Made by a program: the position numbers and the translations under genes. A stretch of DNA of 34,969 bases from an uncultured Verrucomicrobiota bacterium (GTDB lineage: Bacteria > Verrucomicrobiota > Verrucomicrobiia > Limisphaerales > CAIQOK01), in NCBI GenBank assembly GCA_903873415.1, contig CAIQOK010000115.1, forward strand, positions 1 to 34,969, read 5' to 3'. Under the pieces are notes generated by a model that saw only the letters and a list, made by a program, of their open reading frames with translations, did no database searches and had not been told where the DNA came from. Positions 3,048 to 26,341 of the stretch are shown here, piece by piece. The first letter of the stretch is position 1. Each line of letters starts with the position of its first letter.

Positions 3048-3377
3048 ATGTTTTGTGCTTTAGACTTAAACGTTTCCACTCCGGTTTGCCATCCCCAAAT
3101 GGAGCGTGACCGCCGCTCCGCTGTGGTTCACCGCTCAGCCGGCGAGGCGTCCGCGCTGAGCCCCCTGCCGTGTGGATTCGATGAGTGCTTGGCGGGCCGG
3201 CTTCTTTCCATCCGAAACCGGCTCGTTCTTCGACTGATATCTTATTGGGGAAATCTTTGGCCGGCTGAATGAATGGCTGCGAGGCTGGGGAGGGCTGTCA
3301 AACACGCGGCTGTCCGCCTTTTCTTAGTGAAGCGGGTGTCTTGACTTCCAAGAGCGCGTGCCAAAGACTGTCTTTTT
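3048..3377. other. Intergenic region between divergent rhamnosidase and glyS genes
   Basis: This is a 330-base gap separating two divergently transcribed genes, so it should contain both promoters. On the plus strand a TTGACT box sits at 3341-3346. I see no tRNA, no long repeat and no convincing small gene here. Confidence 0.6.
3341..3369 (+). promoter_or_regulatory. Possible glyS promoter, near-leaderless
   Basis: TTGACT (3341-3346) is followed after 17 bases by AAGACT (3364-3369), a weak -10 matching 3 of 6 consensus positions. Initiation about 7 bases later would place the transcript start only one or two bases before the glyS ATG at 3378. No Shine-Dalgarno sequence is visible, which fits a leaderless or very short-leader mRNA. 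The -35 is good and the -10 is poor, so this is tentative. Confidence 0.35.
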
Positions 3378-4997
3378 ATGTCCGACTCGAAAGACAATCT
3401 TGTTATGGAAAAACTCGTGTCGCTGTGCAAGCGGCGCGGTTTCATTTTTCAGTCCTCCGAGATTTACGGCGGGATCAATGGTTTTTGGGATTACGGCCCT
3501 CTGGGCGCGGAGCTTAAGCGCAATGTGAAGGAACTCTGGTGGAACACGATGACGCGCCAGCGCGACGACGTGGCCGGGCTGGAGGCCACCATCATCATGT
3601 CCCCGGAAATCTGGAAGGCCTCCGGGCACGTGGCCACGTTTAGCGATCCGATGATTGATTGCAAGACCTGCAAGGGCCGGTTCCGGGCCGATCATGTGGG
3701 GGAGATTTCCTGTCCGCAAAAGCCCAGCAAGATGGTGGCCGAGTGTCATGGCGAGAAGACCGAGCCGCGCGCCTTCAACCTGATGTTCCAGACCTTTGTC
3801 GGACCGGTTCAGGATGAATCCTCGGTGGCCTACCTGCGGCCGGAGACGGCGCAGGCTATTTTCGCTCAGTTCAAGAACGTGCTGGAAACCTCGCGCCAGA
3901 AGGTGCCCTTTGGCATAGCCCAGGTGGGCAAGGCGTTCCGCAACGAGGTGACACCCCGCAATTATATCTTCCGCTCCCGTGAGTTTGAGCAGATGGAGTT
4001 GGAGTTTTTCATCAAGCCTGACGAGGTGGTGGAGGCCATCTGTGGGCAGGTGGCCGTTCCGTTGCCCGGTGCAACGCTCACGGATCCTCAGCCCGACTGG
4101 GGATGGGCGGCCTGGCACCAATACTGGGTTCAGGAGCGAGTCCGGTTTTACGAGGGGATCGGACTGTCCCGTGAGACCTTGGGTTTTCATGTGCAAACGC
4201 CGGCGGAGCTGGCGCACTACGCGCGTGCCTGCACCGATATTTTGTTCAAGTTCCCCTTCAGCAAGCGCGACGAAAATGGCGAGCTTAAGGGCGAGGAACT
4301 CGAGGGAATCGCGGCCCGCAGTGATTTTGACCTCAGCCAGCATGCGCGATTCTCCGGCAAACCCATGGGGGTGTTCGACGAGGAATTGCGCGCCGCCTGG
4401 GGCAAGCTGGCCAAGGACAGGCAGGACGACATCTGGAAACGTTACTACGAGAATCGCAAAGGCTATCTGGAAAAATCCGGCGTCGCCTTTGAAGCCGCCT
4501 CCCGGCAGGCCACCGAGGACGCCAACGGCTTGGCCAAGGGGCAGTACATCCCGCATGTGATCGAGCCCAGCGCCGGAGTGGACCGCTTGATCCTCGCATT
4601 GCTTGCCAACGCCTATTCGGAAGCGACCGACACCGACGCCAAGGGCAAGAGCGAGTCGCGGGTGGTTCTTAAATTCCATCCCCGGGTGGCGCCCATCAAG
4701 GTGGGGGTGATGCCGCTCCTGAAAAACAAACCGGAACTCGTCGCCAAGGCCCTTGCGGTGCGCGATCTGCTGCGGCCGTGGATGAATGTGTTCTACGACG
4801 ATGCCGGCTCAATCGGCCGCCGCTACGCCCGCCAGGACGAAGCCGGCACGCCTTTCTGCGTGACGGTGGACTTCGACACTCTGGGCGAAAAGCCCGAGCT
4901 CAAGGATACGGTGACCATTCGGCACCGGGACGGCGGCCGGCAGGAAAGGCTGGCGTTGGGTGATTTGCTGAGCTGGATTCTGCCCCAAATCCGCTGA
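3378..4997 (+). CDS. glyS: Glycine--tRNA ligase, single-chain alpha2 type
   Basis: Charges tRNA-Gly with glycine in the cytoplasm, using ATP. The 539-residue length and sequence match the dimeric class II enzyme (archaeal/eukaryotic/Firmicutes type), not the alpha2beta2 GlyQ/GlyS of E. coli. The N-terminus reads SSEIYGGINGFWDYGPLG (about 27-43). A Cys-containing insertion with CKTCKGRF and SCP (about 95-113) may bind metal. Class II motif 2 is FRNEVTPRNYIFRSREFEQM (about 188-207), and motif 3 contains EPSAGVDRLILALL (about 400). The C-terminal anticodon-binding domain starts with VAPIKVGVMPLLKNK. The ATG at 3378 is the first start that gives a normal N-terminus. The stop overlaps the next gene's ATG by one base (TGATG), implying translational coupling. 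A 451-residue frame on the opposite strand is a composition artefact. Confidence 0.96.
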   Translation: MSDSKDNLVMEKLVSLCKRRGFIFQSSEIYGGINGFWDYGPLGAELKRNVKELWWNTMTRQRDDVAGLEATIIMSPEIWKASGHVATFSDPMIDCKTCKGRFRADHVGEISCPQKPSKMVAECHGEKTEPRAFNLMFQTFVGPVQDESSVAYLRPETAQAIFAQFKNVLETSRQKVPFGIAQVGKAFRNEVTPRNYIFRSREFEQMELEFFIKPDEVVEAICGQVAVPLPGATLTDPQPDWGWAAWHQYWVQERVRFYEGIGLSRETLGFHVQTPAELAHYARACTDILFKFPFSKRDENGELKGEELEGIAARSDFDLSQHARFSGKPMGVFDEELRAAWGKLAKDRQDDIWKRYYENRKGYLEKSGVAFEAASRQATEDANGLAKGQYIPHVIEPSAGVDRLILALLANAYSEATDTDAKGKSESRVVLKFHPRVAPIKVGVMPLLKNKPELVAKALAVRDLLRPWMNVFYDDAGSIGRRYARQDEAGTPFCVTVDFDTLGEKPELKDTVTIRHRDGGRQERLALGDLLSWILPQIR

Positions 4998-23388: not shown

Positions 23389-24348
23389 TCAATGCGTGAT
23401 TGCCGCGCTAAGCTGGCCGTGGGCGCTGATGGCAGCCACGCGTTTGAGTCCGGGCGGGACGGAGCATTGGTTGGCGGAGTTTGAGCCCCAAGCCACCACC
23501 GTGCCATCGCTTTTCAAGGCCAGGCTGTGGTAGTCCCCGGTGGCAATGGCGATGACTTTAGATAGCCCCGCAGGCACGGCGTAGCGCATCATTCCATAGC
23601 TGCCCCAGGAAACAACCGTCCCGTTCTGCCTGAGGGCCAGGCTGTGGAACCCTCCTGCCGCCACGGCCACGACCTTGTCCAAACCTGCCGGCACGGTGGA
23701 CTGGCCATAGAAGTTGTTGCCCCAAGCGCTGACGGTCCCGTCCTTTCTCAGGGCCAGACTGTGATACATGCCGCCGGCAACGGCCACGACACCACCCAGC
23801 CCCGCCGGCACTTGGCACTGGCCGTCCTGATTGAATCCCCAGGCGACCACCGTGCCATCGCGCTTGAGCGCCAGACTGTGCGCGGCGCCTGCGGCCAGGG
23901 TTCTGACTTTGCTCAACCCTGCGGGCACCGCGTCCTGGCTATAGTCGCCGAATTGGCCGCTGGACCGGCCCCAAGCCAGCACGGTCCCGTTCCACAACAA
24001 GGCCAGGCTATGCACGTTGCCGGCAGCGATCTGGAGCACAGGCTGGCGGTTCAAACTCGTTGGCACCGAGGTCTGCCCGAAGGTGTTGTCACCCCAACTG
24101 CGCACCCGCCCATCCCAGTCAAGGGCTAATCCGTGGAAATCTCCGGCCGCCACGGCCGCCACGCGCGTCTGAAATTCGATGGGCAGTGGGCCCGGAGCTG
24201 TATCTGCGCCGCCCCAGATAACGAGGCGGTGGGCGGCATGAGTTTGAACAACCGCTGAAAGCCCTGCGAGCAGGAGCAGCCATGCAAGTTTGGCGCGGGC
24301 TGAAAGGCAGGGTGCGCCTCGTGCTGGGTGAATTGCTTTTGTTGCCAT
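23389..24348 (-). CDS. Secreted RCC1-repeat (beta-propeller) protein
   Basis: A 319-residue exported protein made of about six to seven RCC1-type repeats, the seven-bladed propeller first known from eukaryotic chromatin factor RCC1. In bacteria the family has no single function. The signal peptide is in SARAKLAWLLLLAGLSAVVQTHA (about 16-38). Repeats follow the pattern HSLAL..DGTVVAWG.N..GQ..VPAGL..V.A.AAG, for example GDFHGLALDWDGRVRSWGDNTFGQTSVP, AAHSLALKRDGTVVAWGFNQDGQCQVP and GMYHSLALRKDGTVSAWGNNFYGQSTVP. There is no accompanying catalytic domain. The start is ATG 24348, the one that gives an intact signal peptide; the frame continues upstream to 24504 without support. A TATATAA at 24381-24387 lies about 33 bases before it, but I see no clear -35. 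Confidence 0.85.
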   Translation of the reverse strand: MATKAIHPARGAPCLSARAKLAWLLLLAGLSAVVQTHAAHRLVIWGGADTAPGPLPIEFQTRVAAVAAGDFHGLALDWDGRVRSWGDNTFGQTSVPTSLNRQPVLQIAAGNVHSLALLWNGTVLAWGRSSGQFGDYSQDAVPAGLSKVRTLAAGAAHSLALKRDGTVVAWGFNQDGQCQVPAGLGGVVAVAGGMYHSLALRKDGTVSAWGNNFYGQSTVPAGLDKVVAVAAGGFHSLALRQNGTVVSWGSYGMMRYAVPAGLSKVIAIATGDYHSLALKSDGTVVAWGSNSANQCSVPPGLKRVAAISAHGQLSAAITH

Positions 24349-25162
24349 GACAGTGCAGCCCAAGGGCAGCACCCACACCTTATATAAATCCCGACGCAAC
24401 GCCATCCGGGATCGACCCGAATCGGGCCCAATGCGGAATCCGGTACGCCTCCGTGAATGATCCGAGGGGGCGGCCGGGCAGGGCTTGGTTCGCCAATTCT
24501 GCAACCGATTCCGCTTGACCGTGGTGCGACGCGTCCAACAGGGCAGGAAATATTTCTTATACTCAATTGGTCGCCCCGCTCGCGAGAGCGGGGCGCGGAT
24601 TGAAACTCTTTAGTGGATGGGTTGGAATCTCTTTTTCCGTCTTCATGGTTTTTATGGGCGTTAGGGTGGATTTGGTTTGGGGTGGGAAGTTTACCATGAA
24701 GCGCATGGGGCGCATGAAGGGGTGGGATGGTTTTTGATGGCGCAACCACGCATCTGTGGAATGTGAGTCAAGTAAAGGGCGCGACACTCCGCGCGCGCCG
24801 TCGCGGTGCAGGAGAAGGCGCGGGTTGGCAAGAGCGGCGTGTAGAGCACTGCCCACCCTGCCGGCGTTTTTAATCAGTCTGTACTATGAGGGACAGGGAG
24901 TGAATCAAGCGCGGTCGGGGCGCAGGGTTGAACGGACGATGCGCAAGGAAATTGGCTATATACCGGCAAATAAGGGCTTGATGCGCAGCACAGCACTGGC
25001 TTGCGAGGCCTGGCAACACAAAGCCTGCCGGACCTGGGGGTCAAGTTTGACGCTGCGTTTGCGGCCTGCTTGCAGTAGATGGGCTGTCATGTGCTGGCCC
25101 GTGGTACATTTGGATTTGTTTTTGTGGTTGAGACTGCTGCGGGATTCTGAATCAATTCGGGC
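24349..25162. other. 814-base non-coding region with a CRISPR-type repeat
   Basis: This is the longest gap in the window, between divergent RCC1 and TIM-barrel genes. Short frames here have no recognisable motif and no matching strand logic. Contents seen: TATATAA near 24381; a solitary CRISPR-type repeat at 24570-24606; a strongly G/T-rich stretch at 24607-24745 with four G runs that could form a quadruplex; and from 24750 on ordinary GC-rich sequence with a short GCCGGCG-T5 element near 24860. I find no second CRISPR repeat, no tRNA and no insertion-sequence ends. Confidence 0.6.
24570..24606 (+). CRISPR. Solitary CRISPR-type repeat (single copy)
   Basis: This 37-base element has exactly the form of a type I CRISPR repeat. 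It starts GTCGCCCCGCTC, forms a perfect 10-bp stem (CGCCCCGCTC with GAGCGGGGCG) around a GCGA loop, and ends CGCGGATTGAAAC, where ATTGAAAC is the classic 8-base 3' handle. The shape is closest to type I-C repeats (GTCGC start, GC-rich hairpin, GGATTGAAAC end), though it is longer than the usual 32 bases. The upstream flank is AT-rich (AATATTTCTTATACTCAATTG, leader-like), with TATACT at 24558-24563. No second copy occurs within the following few hundred bases, and no cas gene is in the window. It is not a terminator, since no T run follows the stem on either strand. Confidence 0.6.
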
Positions 25163-26341
25163 ATGCGTTTTTCTAATTCCACGCTGGGGTCGGCGCGTGT
25201 TCTGGCGGCTTGTTGTGTTGCGTTTGCCACGGCGGGGCTTGCGGCGGCCCGTTCGGCGCCGGCGCTGTCTGAATTTTTGATCGCCACCGGCTGGGCGGCG
25301 ACCAATCTGGCTGATGCTTCTTTGGCGAATGCTCTGGCCCAAGCCCATTTCAATGCGGTTCTATGGCCGCAAGACAAGCTGGAGGTCTGCCGCGCAGCGG
25401 GGTTGAAACTGATGGTGGAGGATGCGAAGACCCAGGATGCCGCGCGTCTGGGTAAGGACCCGGTGGTGTGGGGCTATCATGTGGCCGATGAGCCCAAGGC
25501 GCCGGCGTTTGCGGCTTTGGCACGCGAGGTGGAGGAATTGCGGCAAGCCGATTCCCGGCACCCGGCCAACATCAACATGCTTTGTTTTGGGGGGGAATTG
25601 CTGCGCGACTACCTGCGGATCGTGCGTCCGGATATTCTCAGCTACGACCATTACCAATGGTGGTGGGGGTCGCACAGTCATTTTGAGAAGCTCGAACAGC
25701 ACCGCGCCGCGGCCTTGTCGGCCGGGATCCCGCTGACCTGCTGGGTGGAGGTCAATGCCAATCCCAACATGGAGTGGGGTGGGGAGCAGGGGTGTGATCC
25801 GGACAACGCGGTCAAGTTGCGGCAGAGTGTCTACACCAGCCTGGCCTATGGCGTGAGGGGCATTCAATGGTTCAGTGCGGCGCAGCTCTTCAAGCCGGGA
25901 AGCACTGATCTAAACGAGTGCGGGCTTGAGGTGGCCGCGCTCAACGCCGAGCTGGAGAAGCTGGGGCCGACGCTCATGAGGCTGCATTCCGTTGATGTGT
26001 TCCATACCCAGCCCCTGCCTCGCCGGACCTGCGAATCGCAGCATGATCATTGGGCGCAGGTTCTGGGGGACGAATTGATGTGGGGAATGTTTAAGGACGA
26101 GGCGGACACGGACTATCTGATGGTGGTGAACCGCGATATTCGCCAACGCCGGCAGGCGACGGTGCAGTTTCAGCGTGCGGGGTATGGGCGCAAGGTCAAG
26201 GAGGTTTTCCGGTTTGACCGGGCTACGGGCCGTTGGGTCGGGTTGAGCAGCCGGGTGCGGGTTCTTTTCGTGGTGAATTTGGCGCCGGGTGACGGGCAGT
26301 TATACAAGGTGCTGAAGGAGGACGCGGTGGGGGGCAAGTGA
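25163..26341 (+). CDS. Secreted TIM-barrel, glycoside-hydrolase-like protein
   Basis: A 392-residue exported protein of a family I cannot name with certainty. The signal peptide is MRFSNSTLGSARVLAACCVAFATAGLAAARS. The body reads like a (beta/alpha)8 glycosidase: FNAVLWPQ, GLKLMVEDAKT, VWGYHVADEPKAPAFAALAREVEELRQAD (the Asp-Glu-Pro after beta-4 is where retaining enzymes place the acid/base Glu), HPANINMLCFGG, RPDILSYDHYQWWWGS (aromatic substrate platform), PLTCWVEVNANPNMEWGG and YGVRGIQWFSA. A small C-terminal beta domain (YLMVVNRDIRQRRQATVQF, then VKEVFRFDRATGRW) follows, as in many glycosidases. The active-site assignment is inference. It lies 100 bases before the first PSD1 gene on the same strand, with a probable terminator between them. 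The ATG at 25163 gives a clean signal peptide. Confidence 0.65.
   Translation: MRFSNSTLGSARVLAACCVAFATAGLAAARSAPALSEFLIATGWAATNLADASLANALAQAHFNAVLWPQDKLEVCRAAGLKLMVEDAKTQDAARLGKDPVVWGYHVADEPKAPAFAALAREVEELRQADSRHPANINMLCFGGELLRDYLRIVRPDILSYDHYQWWWGSHSHFEKLEQHRAAALSAGIPLTCWVEVNANPNMEWGGEQGCDPDNAVKLRQSVYTSLAYGVRGIQWFSAAQLFKPGSTDLNECGLEVAALNAELEKLGPTLMRLHSVDVFHTQPLPRRTCESQHDHWAQVLGDELMWGMFKDEADTDYLMVVNRDIRQRRQATVQFQRAGYGRKVKEVFRFDRATGRWVGLSSRVRVLFVVNLAPGDGQLYKVLKEDAVGGK

Follow-up and report, generated by a model that had tools for sequence, protein, structure and literature searches.

The stretch of DNA analysed here, 34,969 nucleotides from an uncultured Verrucomicrobiota bacterium and called the window below, carries a single CRISPR repeat of the type I-C class, which is probably what remains, without its leader, of an I-C array that was lost or transferred; a dispersed element would have cut it on the spacer side, and it is expected to be inert now. 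The repeat is intact and identical to an array repeat of a distant relative. It occurs once in the genome, lacks a leader and a second repeat, is accompanied by no detectable type I-C cas genes, and is followed after a few bases by a member of a dispersed intergenic family.

The solitary repeat and its class

The 37-mer GTCGCCCCGCTCGCGAGAGCGGGGCGCGGATTGAAAC lies exactly at positions 24570 to 24606 on the plus strand and ends in ATTGAAAC. Its 10-bp GC stem is perfect and closes on a GCGA loop, with a fold of -24 kcal/mol (z -4.0) that none of 200 shuffles equalled in stability. A preceding sequence-only reading had described a 37-base element with just this stem and loop and had assigned it to type I-C, and both points hold good. 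Identical letters form the array repeat of one relative (L052), and repeats of the same class adjoin the I-C cas loci of two others (L104 and L105), so that by these matches the window 37-mer is a true CRISPR repeat of type I-C and not a hairpin arisen by chance. The bases TCAAT directly 5' of the repeat (24563-24567) can pair with ATTGA in the 3' handle (24599-24603), which lengthens the hairpin in the predicted fold; this may be coincidence.

The search of the genome for this 37-base sequence that the sequence-only reading had proposed returned a single copy in 3.8 Mb with up to 3 mismatches allowed, and the reversed pattern, run as a control on the same 3.8 Mb, had no match. The genome (G000) is a draft of 189 contigs, 97.8% complete. 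With no second copy at up to 3 mismatches, it does not hold the two or more regularly spaced repeats that make a CRISPR array. A degenerate second repeat was sought without gaps from 24201 to 25160: the best plus-strand match has 20 of 37 positions, against 21 at the 95% point of shuffles, and the best minus-strand match, at 25 of 37, falls in part on the repeat, which is palindromic. The locus is thus a solitary repeat unit, a single intergenic 37-mer with no other repeats associated. At one copy per genome the hairpin is no REP-like dispersed element either. Had the 37-mer proved to be a common intergenic hairpin unrelated to CRISPR, this would have spoken against the earlier reading; what is common and intergenic here is its 3' neighbour.

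The relative with the identical repeat (L052, genome G106) belongs to the same order and another family, and there a leader precedes two copies of the 37 letters, spaced by about 71 nt. In many genomes of the order the class as a whole, GTCGC-N-GCGCGGATTGAAAC, forms arrays with a period of 71-72 nt. In 58 relatives searched with the pattern GTCGC-N-G(C/T)GGATTGAAAC these are true arrays of 37-nt repeats at that period, and a narrower form of the pattern is present in 48 of 320 genomes from the order. When the genome collection was scanned for the exact stem, with the loop left free, 18 stretches from Verrucomicrobia and Opitutaceae came up, L052 among them. In L105 the genes cas3c, cas8c, cas7c, cas1 and cas2 are followed by a repeat of the window class, as are a Cas8c variant, cas7c, cas3c, cas1 and cas2 in L104. 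The window copy therefore resembles the type I-C repeats of its order and of Opitutaceae in sequence (37/37 with L052), length, stem and 3' end, but differs from them in having no second repeat, spacer, leader or cas genes. The same-genus genome G001 contains no repeat of this class; RCC1 paralogues were the sole match in a synteny comparison with it.

Loci with one repeat also exist among the relatives. Three of them, all from the same order (L010, G048:C269; L014, G035:C449; L141, G139:C7), have a true I-C leader and then a single repeat, with no second copy and away from any detected array, and would be naive or fully collapsed arrays. They share with the window locus the lone I-C repeat and differ from it in the leader. 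A fourth, L143, is a comparable leaderless remnant that has kept a degenerate repeat 72 nt upstream. The window locus, having neither the leader of the first three nor the degenerate repeat of the fourth, is the barest case we have seen.

Flanking sequences and chromosomal setting

The leaders of the order are strongly conserved: they show a CTTTGACA box followed by GGCAGGTTCGCGGAAA..TA..AA and, next to the repeat, by a small hairpin that ends in GGGCCGCA. A matrix was made from the last 60 bases of 25 such leaders. In leave-one-out scoring these leaders reach from +14 to +71 bits, and the 5' flank of the window repeat (24440-24569, plus strand) scores -88 bits; it has no hit to a leader HMM, and a second set of seven leaders, from Opitutaceae, does not match it either. 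Since neither the order's leaders nor those of Opitutaceae match, the flank is, by these comparisons, unrelated sequence and no leader. The AT-rich, leader-like flank of the sequence-only reading must accordingly be given up, and its option of a naive array of leader plus one repeat, a layout that does exist in L010, L014 and L141, finds no support here. The flank also lies outside the dispersed family met on the other side and contains no degenerate repeat. Directly upstream of the repeat there is no match to a sigma-70-like promoter consensus; TATACT at 24559-24564 stands alone, with no second hexamer to go with it.

On the 3' side, a 7-nt linker, TCTTTAG (24607-24613, plus strand), is the most that a first spacer could have left behind. 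Directly after it comes a copy, truncated at its 5' end, of a dispersed intergenic element specific to this genome (24614-24912, plus strand). By BLAST, counting from the match list, this element has about 38 further places in the genome, mostly at 67-84% identity, and none in G001. Other copies extend about 85-100 nt farther 5', so the window copy, with its start 7 nt downstream of the repeat, has been cut short there. The multicopy element does not itself include the CRISPR hairpin. Insertion of the repeat inside a copy of the element was considered and rejected: the 5' flank aligns to the element's 5' part no better than shuffles do, and the repeat was therefore not simply inserted into it. 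Nine copies of the element, with a mean identity of 67%, give a 382-column consensus; shuffling of the columns yields less stable consensus folds.

The repeat lies between a divergent upstream gene for an RCC1-repeat protein (23389-24405, minus strand) and a downstream gene for a predicted protein with no Pfam match (25163-26341, plus strand). Other neighbours encode a trypsin-like protease and PSD1/PSCyt and DUF1501 proteins, and the RNase P RNA lies further off. These are ordinary chromosomal genes, and they place the repeat on no phage, prophage or plasmid. The window has no match to phage DNA, and its two plasmid matches, weak and partial (E 0.7), both fall on the repeat itself. Both flanks are native to this genome, as its RCC1 paralogues and the dispersed family show.

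cas genes of the genome

Single-family searches of this draft, 97.8% complete as noted, detected no type I-C cas genes: Csd1, Csd2 and Cas5 gave nothing, and Cas3 gave only helicases below the cut-off. A Cas8c variant in the same-order I-C locus L104 (8138-10684; PDLC01562, E 2e-113) is missed by the Pfam Csd1 search (PF09709). The Cas7c that goes with this variant is recognised by the Csd2 model, so the Csd2 search should cover systems of that kind as well. The earlier statement that there are no cas genes is right for the window itself and, for type I-C, for the whole genome. It fails for the genome's only Cas1, an RT-Cas1 fusion of 705 aa encoded with Cas2 on a 3.4-kb contig (C23). The suggestion that the repeat is a dispersed element for use by Cas6/Cas5 found no support, the repeat being single-copy and the genome having no Cas5, Cas7c or Cas8c and no Cas3 above the cut-off.

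We also considered the repeat as part of the RT-Cas1 system and rejected this. The RT-Cas1-type loci of relatives carry different repeats, ending CCCCGTTGAAGC or similar, and repeats of that type are absent from this genome, which makes membership of the window repeat in such a system unlikely on sequence grounds. The array-less RT-Cas1 and Cas2 module (L043) is bordered by 60-nt inverted repeats, 83% identical, at 96-155 and 3330-3389, near both ends of its contig, which also contains a 164-nt direct duplication; a mobile module is one possibility, a feature of the assembly another.

Origin of the locus

The remnant of an array, one of the options raised in the sequence-only reading, fits best among them with the single copy and with the lack of leader, second repeat and I-C cas genes. 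A type I-C array, either native and then lost or a horizontally transferred fragment, would have been reduced to one repeat; unrelated sequence would have replaced the leader side, and a truncated copy of the dispersed element would have cut the spacer side to within 7 nt of the repeat. Because leader, spacer, promoter-like site and type I-C Cas proteins are missing, the repeat would be expected neither to acquire spacers nor to yield a processed crRNA. Collapse of an array to one repeat by recombination between its first and last repeats has been described (PMC7056967). That model, for type I-F in Legionella pneumophila, has in common with the window locus the one repeat left after array loss, but it keeps leader and cas genes, and the window locus has neither. 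A literature search under other wording found no named single-repeat remnants. Three points weigh against a relic. Stem and handle are perfect, where decay would be expected of a neutral relic; the 37/37 match to a distant relative points to a recent loss, and a sequence held by selection is the less likely explanation of that match. A simple collapse would leave the leader upstream, and as there is none a second rearrangement or a transfer must be assumed. Finally, a lost contig of the 189-contig draft could hold an I-C locus.

The same fragmentation, together with the frequency with which relatives' arrays end at contig ends, invites the explanation that a real array was collapsed in metagenome assembly, its first and last flanks having been joined through the 37-nt repeat. 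We consider this unlikely: a leader would then be expected upstream, and the flank is not one; neither the repeat nor its array appears on another contig; no I-C cas genes were found; and both flanks belong to the genome. Solitary repeat units of phages and plasmids, RacrIC1 among them, act as RNA anti-CRISPRs (Racrs; PMC10651486), and a transcribed window repeat would in the same way bind Cas proteins of type I-C and inhibit an I-C system. The likeness is that of one repeat mimic standing in an intergenic region with no cas genes, and three viral contigs, described below, each have one repeat of the class. Such a role is nevertheless very improbable here, for the window repeat is on no phage or plasmid, has no promoter-like site, and sits in a host with no I-C system to inhibit, whereas 83% of prophage solitary repeat units match the CRISPR subtype of their host (PMC10651486).

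The perfect preservation of the repeat, the RT-Cas1 and Cas2 of the genome and the leader-plus-single-repeat loci kept in L010, L014 and L141 could instead point to an orphan repeat still at work, as a crRNA-like regulatory RNA or as a site for spacer integration in trans by RT-Cas1/Cas2 or a transient I-C system. To this too we give very little credence: RT-Cas1-type loci of relatives use other repeats, the window locus has no leader, and there is neither a second repeat nor an insert of spacer length. Least probable in our estimate is that selection keeps the repeat as a chromosomal decoy, or as a crRNA-like RNA, that sequesters the Cas proteins of incoming or transient I-C systems; were it so, the decoy would be a host-borne counterpart of the phage Racrs. 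Read as a relic, the locus is a clean case of a CRISPR array that has vanished down to one intact repeat, and it carries the caution that a lone repeat does not demonstrate an array, a leader or an immune function.

Single repeats on viral contigs

Better leads than the window locus are offered by the leader-plus-one-repeat loci of the relatives and by single I-C repeats in viruses. On each of three viral contigs, 75, 58 and 39 kb in length, there is one Verrucomicrobia-type repeat of the I-C class with no second copy nearby, respectively at 4060-4096 on the minus strand (L157), 894-930 on the plus strand (L159) and 284-320 on the minus strand (L160). These single repeats are candidate Racrs. 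That of the 75-kb contig overlaps the stop codon of a phage portal gene.
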